Below are positions 22,793-33,230 of a stretch of DNA of 43,262 nt, piece after piece (position 1 is the first letter of the stretch; every line of letters starts with the position of its first letter). The notes below the pieces were generated by a model. The model saw only the letters and a program-made list of their open reading frames with translations, searched no databases and was not told where the DNA came from. Made by a program: the position numbers and the translations under genes. Source of the stretch: an uncultured Clostridia bacterium (lineage in GTDB: Bacteria; Bacillota; Clostridia; Oscillospirales; CAG-272); assembly GCA_947625265.1 (NCBI GenBank), contig CANQNM010000003.1:1-43262 (forward strand). The letters run 5' to 3'.

Positions 22793-24727
22793 TTACCGCA
22801 TTGCCCGCATAGCGTTGAGAATCGCAAGAACCGAAACACCCACATCGGCGAACACCGCGAATTCCCCCGCATATCCCTCAAGAACCGAAAGCGCAGGAAG
22901 CACCGCTGCCAAACCCAACAGGATAAGCACGCCGAATTTTACAACCAGTGCAAGGATAATGTTCTCCTTTACCAACCTCATGGTTTTTCGGCAGAGTCTT
23001 ATGGCCTTAGGAACATCCGACGGTCTGTCGTTCATAAGCACCACATCTGCCGCTTCCACGGCGGCGTCCGACCCAAATGCGCCCATGGCGATACCCACAT
23101 CGGCTCCAGCCAGCACCGGCGCGTCGTTGATTCCGTCGCCCACAAAGGCCACTGTAAAGTTTCCGGAAGACTGCCCGTCCTGTGCGGCGGGTTCCCTTAC
23201 AAGACGCACCTTGTCTTCCGGAAGCAACTGCGCATGGTATGCGTCCAAATCTAAGAACCGTACCGTTTCCCTTGCGTTTTCGGCGCGATCCCCCGTCAGC
23301 ATCACCCGCCGAATCCCCAGATCCTTCAGTTCTTTGAGCGCCTGGACGCTGTCCTCTTTCAACGTGTCCGACGCAAGAATGCAGCCGATATATTCGCCGT
23401 CGCGCGCAAGGTATACGGCGCTCCCCTTGGAACTTTCCGGAATGCTTTGCTCAATTCCCAGTTCCTTCATCATTCTCAGGTTTCCCGCACAGATTTTTCT
23501 TCCCTGAACCGTCGCCGCAACGCCCCTGCCTGCGAGTTCCTTATACTCCGAAACTTCCGGCAACGGCCCATCTCCGTATTCCTCCCGAATCGCTTTTGCA
23601 AGAGGGTGCGTACTGTATTTCTCCACCGCCGCCGCAAGACACAGAAGTTCTTCTTTTGAACAGTGTTCCGGTAAAAGTTCCTTCACCGAAAAACTGCCTT
23701 TCGTGAGCGTGCCCGTCTTGTCAAAGAAGACCGTTTTACATTTGGACAGCCTTTCCACATAGACGGAACCTTTCATAAGAATACCCTTAGAGCACGCTCC
23801 GCCGATACATCCAAAAAAGGACATGGGCACTGAAATGACCAAAGCGCAGGGACAGGAGACAATCAAAAACATCAACGCCGCGTGTATAAAAGGGCGCCAT
23901 GTGTGCGCGAATCCCCAATTTCCTCCGGAAAGTCCCATGGCCAGCGGTGGGATCAGCGCCATGAGCAACGCGACGCCTGTCACCAAAGGAGTATAAACTC
24001 TTGAAAACGCGGTGATAAAATTTTCGCTTTTCGACTTGTTCAGCCCGGCGCTCTCCACCAATTCCATGATTCTGCGCACAGTGCTTTGCGAAAACGGTTT
24101 GACGACTTTGATGCGCAGCGCCCCGGACAGATTGACACATCCCGAAACCACTTCGTCCCCCTCGGTCACCTCTCGGGGAAGGCTTTCCCCGGTAAGTGCG
24201 GCAGTGTTCAGTTCTGAAGTTCCTTCAATCACCACGCCGTCCAGCGGCACCCGCTCGCCGGGCCGAACAAGAACCGTCTGTCCAACCTGAACCTCCTCCG
24301 GGGATACGCTCTCCGTCGTCCCGTTTTTCTCCAGATTTGCAAGTTCCGGCATCATATTCAAAAGCGAGGACACAGATCTTCTCGATTTACCCACCGCAAT
24401 GCTCTGAAACAGTTCCCCAACTTTATAGAAAATCATGATCGCCGCCGCCTCATGCGCCTCTCCTGCATCCTTTTCCACAACACAGAGAAGCAGCGCTCCC
24501 AAAGAGGCCACACTCATAAGAAATGTCTCATCGAAAATTTGGCCGGAAAACAGTCTGCTTACCGCCGACCACAGCACATCGTAACCGATGAAAAGGTAGG
24601 GGATCGTCATAGTGAGCACACCCGCCCAAAAAGGAGGGTTCCAAATGGCATTCACAGCCAGCGCCCCGAAAAACAGAATCAGAGACAAAAGAATTCTAAG
24701 CAGCGTCTTTTTTTGACTGCCTGTCAT
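22793..24727 (-). CDS. cadA: Heavy-metal translocating P1B-type ATPase (Cd/Zn/Co type), no HMA domain
   Basis: ALTGESLP, VSCPCALVISVP, FFDKTGTLTKG, KYSTHPLAKAI, VGDGINDAPVLAGADVGIAMG all intact. Confidence 0.92.
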   Translation of the reverse strand: MTGSQKKTLLRILLSLILFFGALAVNAIWNPPFWAGVLTMTIPYLFIGYDVLWSAVSRLFSGQIFDETFLMSVASLGALLLCVVEKDAGEAHEAAAIMIFYKVGELFQSIAVGKSRRSVSSLLNMMPELANLEKNGTTESVSPEEVQVGQTVLVRPGERVPLDGVVIEGTSELNTAALTGESLPREVTEGDEVVSGCVNLSGALRIKVVKPFSQSTVRRIMELVESAGLNKSKSENFITAFSRVYTPLVTGVALLMALIPPLAMGLSGGNWGFAHTWRPFIHAALMFLIVSCPCALVISVPMSFFGCIGGACSKGILMKGSVYVERLSKCKTVFFDKTGTLTKGSFSVKELLPEHCSKEELLCLAAAVEKYSTHPLAKAIREEYGDGPLPEVSEYKELAGRGVAATVQGRKICAGNLRMMKELGIEQSIPESSKGSAVYLARDGEYIGCILASDTLKEDSVQALKELKDLGIRRVMLTGDRAENARETVRFLDLDAYHAQLLPEDKVRLVREPAAQDGQSSGNFTVAFVGDGINDAPVLAGADVGIAMGAFGSDAAVEAADVVLMNDRPSDVPKAIRLCRKTMRLVKENIILALVVKFGVLILLGLAAVLPALSVLEGYAGEFAVFADVGVSVLAILNAMRAMR

Positions 24728-24788
24728 GCAAAGCACCCCTTTTTTGAAAATTTTCGCCTCTCAGCAAAGAAAACCGAATGTAAACCGT

Positions 24789-25004
24789 TCATTTTACAAC
24801 ACAGTCCTTTTCCACAGAACGCACTGCTTCGCGCACTTTTTCAAGGATACCCTTCTCGTCTCCGTCTTCACAGTCAAGGATCATTTTCTGTGCCATGAAA
24901 CTGATGGAAACAGAGTGCACTCCCTCGATTTTCGAAATTTTGCGCTCCATTTTTTCGGCGCAGTGCGCGCATTCCAGATTCTCCATTTTTAAAACCTTTA
25001 CCAT
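24789..25004 (-). CDS. Free-standing HMA-domain protein (metallochaperone-like)
   Basis: MVKVLKMENLECAHCAEKMERKISKIEGVHSVSISFMAQKMIL; CxxC motif CAHC; GGGAGGA RBS. Confidence 0.85.
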   Translation of the reverse strand: MVKVLKMENLECAHCAEKMERKISKIEGVHSVSISFMAQKMILDCEDGDEKGILEKVREAVRSVEKDCVVK

Positions 25005-25331
25005 TGCTTTTCTTCCTCCCAGAATATGAATGTAACCATGGACATACTTTGACGCCACGAAAAGTTTTTATTTTTTTACTTTCCAAACGGTGTGATCCCG
25101 AAAATTTCGCGGCGTTTTAAAAGCGGGTTTCAAACAGACAGCAGTTTCCGGTGTCTAACCGTTTCTGCGACTTTATGGCTTACGGTTTTGCGGCCTTTAC
25201 AGTCCCGCAGATTTATTCTCCCGATTTCTGCGTCTTTGCACCGTTCCCCGTACAACGCCGCACTGCCCGCCTTTACCTTTCTAACGTTCGGACATTTTCT
25301 CCCCACATATTCGCGGTTACGTCTCGCCGGT

Positions 25332-25715
25332 TCACTCTGACACATGGTCCAGTCCCAACAGCAAAATCATCCGCACATGTTCGTCACACAAACTGTAAAA
25401 AACGCTTTTTCCCTCTCTGCGACAGCGCACCAGCCGCGCCCCCTTTAAAATTCTCAGAGAGTGGGACACCGCCGACATGCTCATTTGCAGCCGGTCCGAC
25501 AAACCGCCCACACCCGCTTCCCCATCCAAAAGGACGCTGAGAATCCGAATGCGCGTTTCATCCGCAAAAATTTTGTAGAGCTGCGCCAATTCGTACAGCA
25601 GCTCCTCATTGGCAATCCGTTCTTCTTCCCCCTCTGGAATATCTCCGGGATTGAACCGCACACCACTTCGTTCCAATCCCTCCTCTCCGTCAGCGTGAAG
25701 GATCTCTTTTTCCAC
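25332..25715 (-). CDS. ArsR/SmtB family metal-responsive repressor
   Basis: LYKIFADETRIRILSVLLDGEAGVGGLSDRLQMSMSAVSHSLRILKGARLVRCRREGKSVFYSLCDEHV; GAAAGGAGG RBS before GTG 25715. Confidence 0.9.
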   Translation of the reverse strand: MEKEILHADGEEGLERSGVRFNPGDIPEGEEERIANEELLYELAQLYKIFADETRIRILSVLLDGEAGVGGLSDRLQMSMSAVSHSLRILKGARLVRCRREGKSVFYSLCDEHVRMILLLGLDHVSE

Positions 25716-25817: not shown

Positions 25818-25881
25818 CTGTTCTATAACAGTATACAGCATACAACCGGTTTTGTCAAGAGGAAACTGAAAATTTTTTTAC

Positions 25882-26478: not shown

Positions 26479-28206
26479 ATGCATCCATCCATGAAAAAAA
26501 TTTTTTCGCTTCTCCTGATATTTGCCTTTATTTTGGGAACACTGCTCTCCTGCGGCAATTCTCAATCCACCGTCAATACCCATGGAAGCACCCACCGTCC
26601 ATCGCCCGACGGGAATAACTGGATCTATGACGACAGTTCTCCCGATCCCTCTTCCACACCCGCAAAGGATCCGTCCAAAGGGGTGCAGGTTCGCTATGTC
26701 TGCGCTCCCGTAGGGGCGGGCGTCATTGACGGAACCGCCACGCAATATATCAAATCCGGCGGATACACCGAACGCGTCACCGCTATTCCTCTCTACGGCT
26801 ACATGTTCACCGGCTGGTCGGACGGTAAGACCGAGCGGTCAAGAGTTGCGGACAGCGCCAAAGAGGATGTGGTGTACACCGCCAACTTCGCGCCGGTGGA
26901 AGTTCCCGTCAAACTCACTGTGCCCGACGTTTATGTCAATACCTCGTCCGGGGGGGACATTCGTTACAAGAGTTACGAGCGCGCCACGGTGACCGTCACA
27001 GGCGCGGATAAGGACAAATACAATTTCACGGCGGCGGGCGCGAACATTAAAGGCAGAGGAAACTCCTCCTGGAGTTCGTCTTATATCGGAAAAACTCTGG
27101 GACAGAACCGTTGGACAACCACCGGCAAAAAGTATGAAACGGTGTCGGAAACCGAGATGTATAAAACGAAGAATTCCTATACTCTGAAATTCGACGAAGC
27201 GGTCAATCTCCTCGGCATCGGCAACGGAAAGAACAAAGATTGGATTCTTCAGTCCAACAAATACGACATCTCCAACCTCCGCAACAAATTCATCTACATG
27301 CTTGCGGAAAAGATGGGAACACTCACATGGGTCACCCACTGCGCCTGGGTCAATCTTTATATCAATGGGGAGTATAGAGGACTGTACATGATTCAGGAAA
27401 AGGTCGAAGCAGCCAATGACCGGGTAAACATCGACGACAGCGGCACCGACCCCGACAAGGGATATCTGATCGAACTGGACTTCCGCGCCGGCAGTGATTC
27501 CAGCAAAAAGGAAGGACTGGACTATTTCTATATCCCGGAATTTCACAAAAACGACAGCAACAAAAGAGAATTCGACATAGTGAGCGAACATTCCACCGAG
27601 GCGGAATGCTCCTTCATACAGGACTATATGATCCGGGTAGACGCCGCCATCCGTTCTCATGACAAAGAGCGCATTGAGGAATTGGTGGATCTCTATTCGC
27701 TTGTGGATATTTTCATCATTGAAGAAATCGCCAAGGACTGCGACTGGGGAGCAACGTCCTTTTACATGTATAAGGAAAAGGGCGGAAAACTTTATTTCAC
27801 TTCGCCTTGGGATTTCGATCTCTGCATGGGCAGTTACAGTGTCTCCCTGACTCTTCCGGGACTGGTGAGCGCGCACTATGGCAACGAGTGGTTCATCGAA
27901 TTGCACGACGTCAAATGGTTTGTAAACATGGTGCAGGCGCGAATGACGTCGCTGGAGGGAGCCATCGACGACTGTCTTGTGATGCTTCAAAAATACGCAC
28001 TGGCTCTCAAGCCCTATGTGGATCGCAACAATGAGCGCTGGAATGTCTACGGAGTAAACTATCATGAATATGTCTCCCCCCAGGTTTCCGGACTGCTGTG
28101 CACTTACGAAGAACATGTAGCGTTCATCTACGACTGGATTCTCTACAGATGGGACGATCTGCGCAAATACTACCCGCCAAACAGCACCTCCCCCCTGCTC
28201 AAATAA
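26479..28206 (+). CDS. CotH kinase family lipoprotein
   Basis: Signal peptide with lipobox LLSCGN; GANIKGRGNSSW, KNSYTLKFDEAVNLLG, WILQSNKYDISNLRNKF, VNLYINGEYRGLYMIQEKVE, SPWDFDLCMG. Confidence 0.88.
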   Translation: MHPSMKKIFSLLLIFAFILGTLLSCGNSQSTVNTHGSTHRPSPDGNNWIYDDSSPDPSSTPAKDPSKGVQVRYVCAPVGAGVIDGTATQYIKSGGYTERVTAIPLYGYMFTGWSDGKTERSRVADSAKEDVVYTANFAPVEVPVKLTVPDVYVNTSSGGDIRYKSYERATVTVTGADKDKYNFTAAGANIKGRGNSSWSSSYIGKTLGQNRWTTTGKKYETVSETEMYKTKNSYTLKFDEAVNLLGIGNGKNKDWILQSNKYDISNLRNKFIYMLAEKMGTLTWVTHCAWVNLYINGEYRGLYMIQEKVEAANDRVNIDDSGTDPDKGYLIELDFRAGSDSSKKEGLDYFYIPEFHKNDSNKREFDIVSEHSTEAECSFIQDYMIRVDAAIRSHDKERIEELVDLYSLVDIFIIEEIAKDCDWGATSFYMYKEKGGKLYFTSPWDFDLCMGSYSVSLTLPGLVSAHYGNEWFIELHDVKWFVNMVQARMTSLEGAIDDCLVMLQKYALALKPYVDRNNERWNVYGVNYHEYVSPQVSGLLCTYEEHVAFIYDWILYRWDDLRKYYPPNSTSPLLK

Positions 28207-28516: not shown

Positions 28517-29200
28517 TCAGCGAGCGTTTTCAAAGTAAGCGCACAGAACTTTTGCGGAATTGTCCGCAGCGAGTTTTTTGAAACTTTCATAGTCCATGGC
28601 GCCGCCTGCGCCATCGGAAATGCATCGCAAAATGGCACAGGGAGTTTTGTTCACGAAACACACCTGCGCGATCGCCTGCCCTTCCATTTCACAGGCAATC
28701 GCCGAAAAATTCTCCCGGATCTCACGTTTTCTCCCATTCTCGCAAACAAACTGATCTCCCGAAGCGATGACGCCCCTCTTTGCTCTGACGCCCAGCCGTT
28801 CGCAGATATCCAGAAGTTCCTCGCTCATTGGGACGTCAAGGGGAATTCGCACCGTATTCAGCCCCGAAATCCACCCTATGGGATCGCCCAAAGGCGACGT
28901 GTCCATGTCATGACAAACGGCGGCACTACCCACCGCCATATCTCCTACCGACAGTTCCCCGTCCAGCGCACCCGCCACTCCCGTGTTGATCACCGCATCG
29001 GGAGCGTAACGCAGAATCATTGCCTCGGCACAAAGCGCAGCAAATGTCTTACCGATGCCGCACACTGCCAGCACTGCATCCTTTCCAAAAAGTTTTCCGC
29101 CGGTAAAACGAACGCCTGAGATCTGTTCCTCCCACCGCTCGGCAAGACGGCTCTCCAATCTCTCGATCTCCAGATCCATTGCTCCGATGATTCCAATCAT
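28517..29200 (-). CDS. mtnN: 5'-methylthioadenosine/S-adenosylhomocysteine nucleosidase
   Basis: MIGIIGAMDLEIERLESRL, NTGVAGAL, ACEMEGQAIAQVCFVNKTP, ISDGA. Confidence 0.9.
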   Translation of the reverse strand: MIGIIGAMDLEIERLESRLAERWEEQISGVRFTGGKLFGKDAVLAVCGIGKTFAALCAEAMILRYAPDAVINTGVAGALDGELSVGDMAVGSAAVCHDMDTSPLGDPIGWISGLNTVRIPLDVPMSEELLDICERLGVRAKRGVIASGDQFVCENGRKREIRENFSAIACEMEGQAIAQVCFVNKTPCAILRCISDGAGGAMDYESFKKLAADNSAKVLCAYFENAR

Positions 29201-29445: not shown

Positions 29446-29904
29446 TCACCCCTTTGGGTAAATAAAATTGGCGCCCAGAAGATCGGTGTGTTCAAGAAAA
29501 TCCGCTGCACAGGATTTCGCCGCCTCCAGGGACAATTCCCTGTAGTTGCCGCACTGCGTTTCCGACTGTCCGTACATTTCCGTTGCCTCAAAGGCGATAA
29601 ACCGCAGCGTCCGGTAAACTTCCTTCCGGACGGTATCGCCATCCACTTTTCGAAGCAGCAGATAGAAACCCGTGCGGCATCCCATGGGACCAAAATATAT
29701 CACGTTTTCGCCAATGGGACCGTTGCGAATGCAGGTAGCAAACATATGTTCCACAGAGTGCATTTCAAGATTGGAAAGGTAGTCTCCCCCGTTCGGTTTT
29801 TTGAAACGCAGATCATAGGTGTCAATGTCTCCGTCCCTTCTTGAAAGATAGATCCCGGGCACAATATATCTGTGATCTACCCGAAAACTCTCGATTGGTT
29901 TCAT
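29446..29904 (-). CDS. luxS: S-ribosylhomocysteine lyase LuxS
   Basis: SFRVDHRYIVPGIYLSRR, LEMHSVEHMFATCIRN, YFGPMGCRTGFYLLL, QCGNYRELSLEAAK; start MKPIESF with GAGGA RBS. Confidence 0.95.
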   Translation of the reverse strand: MKPIESFRVDHRYIVPGIYLSRRDGDIDTYDLRFKKPNGGDYLSNLEMHSVEHMFATCIRNGPIGENVIYFGPMGCRTGFYLLLRKVDGDTVRKEVYRTLRFIAFEATEMYGQSETQCGNYRELSLEAAKSCAADFLEHTDLLGANFIYPKG

Positions 29905-29949
29905 GTTCGTCCTCATATCCGTTTTTCGCATTCATATTTGCGGATTTAT

Positions 29950-30167: not shown

Positions 30168-30196
30168 TTGACTTTTCCCGAAAACTATCGTATAAT
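30168..30196 (+). promoter_or_regulatory. Sigma-A promoter for VTC-DUF4956 genes
   Basis: TTGACT, 17-nt spacer, TATAAT. Confidence 0.75.
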
Positions 30197-30208
30197 GTGT
30201 GCGTATAG

Positions 30209-30221
30209 TGTACAGTGTACA
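30209..30221. promoter_or_regulatory. Operator-like inverted repeat TGTACAGTGTACA
   Basis: TGTACA-G-TGTACA lies between the two opposing promoters. Confidence 0.55.
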
Positions 30222-30247
30222 TCACGTCGGAAATATACCGCACCGGG

Positions 30248-30276
30248 AGTATAGCACAAAAACGTCCCAATGTCAA
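30248..30276 (-). promoter_or_regulatory. Sigma-A promoter for luxS
   Basis: Minus strand TTGACA (30276-30271), 17-nt spacer, TATACT (30253-30248). Confidence 0.75.
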
Positions 30277-30470: not shown

Positions 30471-31229
30471 ATGCCTGTTTTTCAGTTCACTTTCGAACGA
30501 TACGAGAGAAAATATCTGATTTCCGAAGAACAGTATCAGAAACTCCTTGAGCGTTTGGAAGGAAAAATGACGGAGGACCGATACGCGCGGTCGCTCATCA
30601 CCAATATATACTATGACACACCTGATTTTCTCCTCGTAAGAAGGAGTATTGATAAACCCATCTATAAAGAAAAACTCAGGGTGCGGAGTTACGGCGTTCC
30701 CCAGAGCGACAGTAAGGTTTTTGTGGAAATCAAGAAAAAATATAAAGGTGTAGTCTATAAGAGACGAATCAATGTGCCGCTTGACAGCGCCTGTGCCTTT
30801 CTGAAAGGAAATGCTCCCTGCCCGGAACCGGGGCAGATCGGAAACGAAATCTCTTATTTCGTATCGTTCTACAGGGGAATCGGTCCAGCCATGTTCATTT
30901 CCTACGACCGTTATTCATTGGCCAGCCCCACAGACAGCGTGCTGCGCATCACCTTCGACCGCAACATCACCTGGCGCACCGAAGACCTCGACCTGAAGAA
31001 CGGCGTTTACGGAAACCGTCTTCCTCTGGACGACGGAATTCTTATGGAAATAAAAATTCCAGGCGTAATGCCCCTATGGCTTTCGCAACTTTTGGACGAA
31101 CTGCATATCATGCCCTGTTCCATCTCCAAATACGGAACAGCCTACAGCATTGCGCTGGAGGAACATCTCGTAGATCCCTTGGCGGGCGCACAATCGCTCC
31201 TCGCCAAAACCAACCGAATCCTCCCCTGA
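30471..31229 (+). CDS. VTC-domain (polyphosphate polymerase-like) protein
   Basis: RYERKYLISEEQYQKLLERL, TNIYYDTPDF, KEKLRVRSYG, VFVEIKKKYKGVVYKRR, SYDRYSL, LRITFDRNITWR, ILMEIKIPG; RBS GGAAGGGAG. Confidence 0.88.
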   Translation: MPVFQFTFERYERKYLISEEQYQKLLERLEGKMTEDRYARSLITNIYYDTPDFLLVRRSIDKPIYKEKLRVRSYGVPQSDSKVFVEIKKKYKGVVYKRRINVPLDSACAFLKGNAPCPEPGQIGNEISYFVSFYRGIGPAMFISYDRYSLASPTDSVLRITFDRNITWRTEDLDLKNGVYGNRLPLDDGILMEIKIPGVMPLWLSQLLDELHIMPCSISKYGTAYSIALEEHLVDPLAGAQSLLAKTNRILP

Positions 31230-31299: not shown

Positions 31300-31974
31300 A
31301 TGGAACTTTTTGGAATAACCTTCACGGGAATTTACGCCTTTTTCATCTGTGCTGCCATTGCTCTGGTTCTCGCCGTTCCCATCGCTTTCAGTTACACCGT
31401 CAAGAATAAGTCCTACAGCAAAGGGTTTGTTCTCACAATCTTTTCTCTGCCGATCGCCGTAATGACCGTACTGATGATGGTGGGCAATCAGGTGGGCGCT
31501 GCGGTGGCCATCGCCGGCGTCTTTGCCCTGGTGCGCTTCCGCTCTCTGCCCTGCACAGCCAAAGAACTGGTCAACGTCTTCATGGCCATGATCGTCGGCG
31601 TCGCCGTGGCCAATGCCAAAGCGGATGCCCTGATCGTCGCTGTGGTCTTCACCGTGGTGGTATGCGCCATCAACATCGTGTTCAACACCACACATCTCGG
31701 TGAAGTTTCAAGGAGCAGCAAAACTCTGCGAATCACCATCCCGGAATCGTTGGACTATACTGACGTTTTTGACGATCTCTTTGAAAAATACACTTCCGCC
31801 CATGAGTTGGTGCGCGTAAAAACCGCCAACATGGGCAGCATGTTCCAACTGACCTATGAAATCACTCTGAAAAACGAGAGAGATGAGCGCGCTTTCCTCA
31901 ACGATTTACGTTGCCGCAACGGAAATCTTGACATCATCTGCGCCAAAACACTGCAGGACGAAAACACCCTTTGA
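31300..31974 (+). CDS. DUF4956 membrane protein
   Basis: N-terminal TM helices, GAAVAIAGVFALVRFRSLPCTAKELVNVFMAMIVGVA pattern; adjacent to VTC gene; RBS GAAAGGA. Confidence 0.8.
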   Translation: MELFGITFTGIYAFFICAAIALVLAVPIAFSYTVKNKSYSKGFVLTIFSLPIAVMTVLMMVGNQVGAAVAIAGVFALVRFRSLPCTAKELVNVFMAMIVGVAVANAKADALIVAVVFTVVVCAINIVFNTTHLGEVSRSSKTLRITIPESLDYTDVFDDLFEKYTSAHELVRVKTANMGSMFQLTYEITLKNERDERAFLNDLRCRNGNLDIICAKTLQDENTL

Positions 31975-32375: not shown

Positions 32376-33005
32376 CTACCCTTTGCCCTTGAGCACCGGT
32401 GAAAGAGGTTTGTAGATAAAAAAGACGATGAGTGAAACGAGAAGACACTTGATCAGGGTAAAGGGCAGATTGAAGACCGCAAGACAAGCAAAAAGATTCC
32501 CATCCAAAGGAAGAATTTCCTCATACATGGCAAGCAATGTTTCTTTGGGCAAAAGCACCTTCATGTAGAGGGGATAAATGAGGAAGTAGTTGCTGGCGAG
32601 GCTGAAAACAGCACAGAGTACCGATCCTCCCAGACTGGCTGCAATCGCTCCTTTTCTGGTCTTTGCCCGCATGTAGATCGCTCCTGCGGCTGCCGTAAAC
32701 ACAGCGGCCAGAATGAAATTAGAAAGTTCGCCGATGCCCATGGTTCCGGTCACCGTGAGGTGGAACAGATTTTTTATCAAGCACACCGCGACGCCCCACT
32801 GGGGACCAAGCGCGAAAGCACAAAGAAGTGCCGGAAGATCTGAAAAGTCAAATTTTAAAAACTCGGGCACCAACGGCACAGAAAACTCAAGAAGCTGCAG
32901 AATAAAACTCACTGCTGAAAGAATAGCCGTCACCACCAAAGGTCTGATTCTAAAGGAGTTTTTTTTCACTTCTTTTGAAGTGGCGTTCAAAGATTCGTTT
33001 TTCAT
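32376..33005 (-). CDS. ribU: Riboflavin ECF transporter S component RibU
   Basis: VTAILSAVSFILQLLEFSVPLVPEFLKFDFSDLPALLCAFALGPQWGVAVCLIKNLFHL; preceded by FMN riboswitch. Confidence 0.9.
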   Translation of the reverse strand: MKNESLNATSKEVKKNSFRIRPLVVTAILSAVSFILQLLEFSVPLVPEFLKFDFSDLPALLCAFALGPQWGVAVCLIKNLFHLTVTGTMGIGELSNFILAAVFTAAAGAIYMRAKTRKGAIAASLGGSVLCAVFSLASNYFLIYPLYMKVLLPKETLLAMYEEILPLDGNLFACLAVFNLPFTLIKCLLVSLIVFFIYKPLSPVLKGKG

Positions 33006-33025
33006 TTTTTCCTTTCCGGGACGCA

Positions 33026-33049
33026 AAGAAAAAGCGCCCCAGAGGGCGC
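33026..33049 (-). terminator. Riboswitch expression-platform terminator
   Basis: Minus strand GCGCCC-TCTG-GGGCGC followed by TTTTTCTT. Confidence 0.75.
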
Positions 33050-33061
33050 GCGAAAAGCGCA

Positions 33062-33185
33062 ACTTTTCTCATCCGGACTATACCGTCGGTGCAGGCTTTT
33101 CCCTGCTCGGCGCCTTTCGGCGTTCGCGGACTTCCGGTCTTTTCCGACCGTTCACCGCCGGTGTGGAATTTCACCAACCCCCAAA
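33062..33185 (-). ncRNA. FMN riboswitch (RFN element)
   Basis: Minus strand GGTGAAATTCCACACCGGCGGTGA...AAGTCCGCGAACGCCGAAAGGCG...ACCGACGGTATAGTCCGGATGAGA matches RFN consensus blocks. Confidence 0.95.
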
Positions 33186-33230
33186 GTTTATTTTTTGTAT
33201 GTTTGGTATATCGACAGTATATGCACCTAA

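Follow-up and report, generated by a model that had tools for sequence, protein, structure and literature searches.

How two near-consensus promoters can serve divergent genes while pointing at each other, and what this geometry would mean for expression of the genes, is the question raised by the region between luxS and a VTC-domain gene in the 43,262-nucleotide stretch of clostridial DNA analyzed here (the window). The two genes are separated by a gap of about 540 nt, inside which the promoters face each other with their -10 elements 51 nt apart; by sequence, these are opposite-strand promoters aimed at each other, one for each of the divergent genes. The features of the locus are as follows, with transcription start sites predicted 7 nt past the -10 element.

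The facing promoters and the genes around them

26479 to 28206, plus strand: CotH kinase-like protein (Pfam CotH, E 2.6e-30; position kept in three congeners, by synteny)
28517 to 29200, minus strand: pfs, MTA/SAH nucleosidase (Pfam PNP_UDP_1, E 4.4e-47; also by synteny)
29446 to 29904, minus strand: luxS, S-ribosylhomocysteine lyase, AI-2 synthesis (Pfam LuxS, E 1.9e-43)
30168 to 30196, plus strand: VTC-DUF4956 promoter, TTGACT-17-TATAAT, 11 of 12 consensus matches, predicted start near 30203
30203 to 30241, no strand assigned: predicted dually transcribed stretch of 39 nt between the predicted start sites
30209 to 30221, no strand assigned: palindrome TGTACA-G-TGTACA between the predicted starts of the two promoters, a possible operator, present in the window species only
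30248 to 30276, minus strand: luxS(-pfs) promoter, TTGACA-17-TATACT, 11 of 12 matches, predicted start near 30241
30471 to 31229, plus strand: VTC-domain, polyphosphate-polymerase-like protein (Pfam VTC, E 7.7e-41)
31300 to 31974, plus strand: DUF4956 protein, on the VTC strand (Pfam DUF4956, E 4e-13)

An earlier note on this DNA had described the two promoters with their 17-nt spacers and had predicted about 39 nt of complementary 5' ends, with each polymerase having to cross the promoter of the other. The coordinates and spacers agree with that description, each site lies in the initially transcribed region of the other, and the arithmetic is correct for the predicted starts; the gene names luxS, VTC and DUF4956 are upheld by the Pfam E-values. 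The likely luxS start, judged from sequence and comparison with congeners, is the ATG at 29904 behind GAGGA, the longest open frame beginning at 29931. The pfs gene is on the luxS strand and lies immediately past luxS in the congeners. In streptococci and clostridia, genes for CotH, polyphosphate polymerase and DUF4956 proteins accompany pel exopolysaccharide clusters as accessory genes (PMC7112168), which makes it possible that AI-2/methyl-cycle flux is linked to a function in the envelope or matrix. Also in the window, an FMN riboswitch (90.9 bits; 33057-33192, minus strand) is located upstream of the gene at 32376-33062, which encodes an ECF transporter substrate-binding protein, probably a riboflavin transporter.

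Only six sites with at least 11 of 12 matches are present on both strands of the 43-kb window, and the facing pair accounts for two of them; no additional site with at least 9 of 12 matches was found inside the gap for either luxS or VTC, which leaves each promoter as the sole good candidate for its gene in the window. None of 3000 dinucleotide shuffles of the 539-nt intergenic region yielded a face-to-face pair this good, and the pair is the sole strict one found in its own genome, the genome-wide counts being based on pattern searches. The luxS promoter has an extended -10 element, TGC-TATACT, noted as TTTTTGTGC-TATACT. Elsewhere in the window, another consensus promoter, TTGACA-17-TATACT (25830-25858, minus strand), precedes an ArsR-type regulator (25332-25715), a short putative metal-binding open reading frame (24789-25058) and a P-type metal ATPase (22793-24736).

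The predicted leaders are long: with the start at 29904, that of luxS has about 337 nt, and that of VTC has 268 nt. A riboswitch or attenuator in them was considered and set aside: there is no Rfam match at E≤1 and the folding energies are unremarkable (z-scores of -1.43 and +1.00). Further copies of either leader were not found in the genome, and a repeated element as the source of the longer gap in the window was rejected on this ground.

Conservation, spacing and footprints within the genus

Five congeners were compared, the window species and four others (G001, G002, G003 and G004), of which G002, G003 and G004 correspond to deer MAGs labeled "Clostridia bacterium", from colon, rectum and cecum. 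These three keep the order CotH(+) pfs(-) luxS(-) / VTC(+) DUF4956(+), with about 62% identity for luxS and about 72% for VTC; no whole-region DNA similarity to the window was detected, and the comparison was made via protein synteny. In each of the three, a VTC-strand TTGACA-17-TATAAT (12 of 12) faces a luxS-strand TTGACA-17-TATACT (11 of 12). The intergenic gaps are shorter in these congeners, the range across the four species being about 185-540 nt, and shuffling of the G002, G003 and G004 regions likewise gave such a pair in 0 of 3000 trials for each. The 600 nt preceding VTC, scanned in two of these congeners, contained no alternative promoter with at least 9 of 12 matches.

In an alignment made blind to the promoters, many of the invariant columns fall on the promoter sites. 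With the promoters as anchor, the alignment has 23 invariant columns among the 24 of the hexamers, compared with 13 of 34 in the spacers and 12 of 102 in the flanks; the corresponding Fisher test (p ~2e-15) is inflated by the hexamer anchoring, and the weight rests on the unanchored alignment and the shuffles. The invariant spacer columns are mainly TTTTGTG and TCG ahead of the -10 elements, with TTTTGTG preceding that of luxS, and the congener alignments also show a conserved TCGTATAATG at the VTC-DUF4956 promoter. These results support the view that both sites are genuine, conserved promoters, as they appear to be from their sequences. It should be noted that G002 and G003 are close relatives, so that the four species amount to about three independent lineages.

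The earlier note had named conservation of both hexamer pairs in relatives as a check on its proposal. Both pairs are present in four of the five congeners, the window species counted; the 39-nt overlap, in contrast, is not kept. The -10 elements lie 51 nt apart in the window, as against 18 nt in G003, 17 in G002 and 6 in G004, which gives predicted shared 5' ends of 39, 6 and 5 nt and none, respectively, the predicted starts in G004 being divergent and 7 bp apart. Because the shared 5' ends vary in this way while the promoters persist, the antisense overlap stressed in the earlier note is not the conserved property, and a function for the complementary ends is not supported. The footprint of RNA polymerase on a promoter is taken as -55 to +20. 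With this value, the footprints of the two promoters have 3 bp in common in the window, 36 in G003, 37 in G002 and 48 in G004. On these predicted positions, the conserved property is the overlap of polymerase footprints, which is strong in three species and marginal in the window.

Outside these four species the arrangement differs. In a scan of 51 luxS loci in the family and order, the facing pair was found at the four loci of this genus only, and its absence from all 47 of the others rules against a family-wide feature of luxS; strong divergent promoters at other luxS genes, where present, are back to back. In the fifth congener, G001, VTC lies directly opposite pfs with the promoters back to back, and luxS is elsewhere; face-to-face geometry is therefore not essential to the genus. 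In G077, which belongs to a different genus, DUF4956-VTC and luxS-pfs are divergent without the interlock. Comparison with G001 and G077 thus indicates that the gene neighborhood recurs but that the interlock is confined to part of one genus.

Two further observations concern the genes themselves. The luxS gene of G001 (L024, contig C107) is only about 50% identical and has a different neighborhood, which suggests that luxS has been replaced or transferred within the genus. The activated-methyl-cycle genes pfs and luxS repeatedly adjoin VTC-DUF4956, in G001 (L065/L133), in G077 (L131) and in G016, where pfs and VTC are on one strand (L068).

Probable competition for RNA polymerase and the alternatives

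The reading that we favor is that luxS-pfs and VTC-DUF4956 probably compete for RNA polymerase through their interlocked promoters. The sites, their conservation, the synteny and the geometry are observed; on this reading, both promoters would fire, at strengths sufficient for interference. Two strong promoters of the housekeeping sigma type, belonging to divergent units, would interlock face to face, and a polymerase at one of them would cover, or have to cross, the other. The stronger or more activated promoter would then depress its opponent through occlusion and through removal of waiting polymerase (the sitting-duck effect), and short face-to-face overlaps are thought to work mainly by the latter (PMC3134472). 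In the three congeners with 6-18 nt between the -10 elements, there would be a direct contest for one shared footprint; with 36-48 bp in common, a polymerase bound at one promoter should keep a second one off its opponent. The footprints just meet (~3 bp) in the window species, where the distance is 51 nt, and interference would come chiefly from the elongating polymerase. Mutually exclusive expression, as envisaged in the earlier note, may follow from this geometry, with a strong case in the three relatives and a weaker one in the window species. The window gap offers ample space, and the promoters are interlocked nonetheless; with gaps in the range found across the four species, shortage of space is an unconvincing cause of the interlock.

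Retention of two promoters does not, however, prove that interference is used, and the pair may instead consist of two ordinary constitutive promoters that became interlocked by chance, are conserved because both are needed, interfere negligibly and owe their geometry to descent. The small number of independent lineages is compatible with this, as are the ability of G001 to manage with a different geometry and the finding that five tested bidirectional promoters of Escherichia coli are too weak basally for competition to matter (PMC12825309). The promoters considered here have near-perfect hexamers, which argue for high occupancy, where competition would be expected to appear; in addition, all four gaps are roomy enough for separated promoters, and the distance between the -10 elements has drifted freely from 6 to 51 nt while the interlock stayed. 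We therefore consider the constitutive explanation unlikely, although it deserves to be taken seriously.

Two explanations that depend on features of the window species are much less probable. A regulator bound to the palindrome at 30209-30221 could govern both promoters jointly in this species, and the palindrome is indeed a perfect one of 13 nt that sits between the promoters and within both predicted transcripts. It is absent, however, from the aligned regions of the congeners, and TGTACA-N-TGTACA was rejected as a regulon operator since its single other exact copy in the genome is within a GGTACA repeat, so that no regulon is visible; control through this element appears very improbable. 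Least probable of all is that an antisense duplex between the complementary 5' ends silences one of the mRNAs post-transcriptionally. There is precedent for excludon-type control in Listeria and elsewhere, and 39 complementary nt are predicted in the window, but the overlap shrinks to a few nucleotides and then to nothing in the congeners, and the leaders show neither unusual structure nor a match to an RNA family; this was rejected as the main reading.

Relation to known systems and to the family

The luxS/VTC pair is a fresh, well-conserved case of an already known but unusual face-to-face divergent arrangement. The closest counterpart is scbA/scbR of Streptomyces coelicolor, also a pair of divergent genes with face-to-face promoters, one of the genes making a diffusible signal; its 5' ends overlap by 53 bp and it has been modeled as a bistable switch acting through transcriptional interference (PMC3134472). 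The two differ in that ScbR is a repressor of its own circuit with feedback, whereas the Pfam assignments at the present locus (LuxS, MTAN, VTC and DUF4956) include no DNA-binding regulator that could supply product feedback, and the overlap of luxS and VTC is not conserved; a sequence relation is not expected. In bidirectional promoters, one -10 region serves both strands and the divergent starts are mostly 10, 18 or 23 bp apart; opposing polymerases cannot occupy overlapping sites at once, as would also be expected here, and strong transcription one way can repress the opposite direction (PMC12825309). G004 is close to this class, but the -10 elements of luxS and VTC are separate in all four species (6-51 nt apart), each with its own consensus -35, and the predicted transcripts cross in three of them. 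The convergent promoters of phages P2, 186 and lambda are similarly strong and face to face, with interference by occlusion, collision and the sitting-duck effect (PMC6593788), but they serve a phage decision, have dedicated regulators and are mostly wider apart, whereas the luxS and VTC promoters serve bacterial metabolic or envelope units. The excludon resembles the locus in having neighboring genes with opposite-strand transcripts; there, a long antisense RNA extends across a gene, whereas the leaders of luxS and VTC overlap by a predicted 39 nt at most, and a substantial conserved overlap is lacking across the four species.

Strict near-consensus pairs were surveyed in 198 genomes of the family. 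Face-to-face pairs with a gap of 0-30 nt were found at 52 sites in 46 of the 198 genomes, against none in a reversed control; at equal spacing, same-direction pairs were found in 6 and back-to-back pairs in 130, and gaps of 31-60 nt add 39 face-to-face sites in 35 genomes. The geometry is thus a regular but minority arrangement in the family. The majority of 30 face-to-face loci that were inspected lie between divergent open frames, and several of ten sampled with Pfam join a regulator (AraC, DeoR, ROK, TetR or S24/LexA-like) to a neighbor. Several of the pairs among L032-L061 adjoin LexA-like/S24 repressors, Y-family polymerases or UvrB, and promoters of surveyed pairs coincide in part with a recurring element, TTTCGGAAATGCG or GAACAAATGTTC.

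At this locus the genus provides a graded series, near-bidirectional at 6 nt between the -10 elements, overlapping at 17-18 nt and convergent at 51 nt, together with the back-to-back form in G001. That the series embodies a conserved choice, made without a regulator, of either the AI-2/methyl-cycle genes or a VTC-DUF4956 unit like those beside exopolysaccharide clusters is possible but doubtful. The four natural spacings would offer a ready-made series for the effect of distance on competition between face-to-face promoters, and the survey indicates that such near-consensus pairs are regular in genomes of the family. Should the interference prove real, these ruminant-gut Clostridia would couple AI-2 synthesis to a VTC/DUF4956 unit without a regulatory protein.
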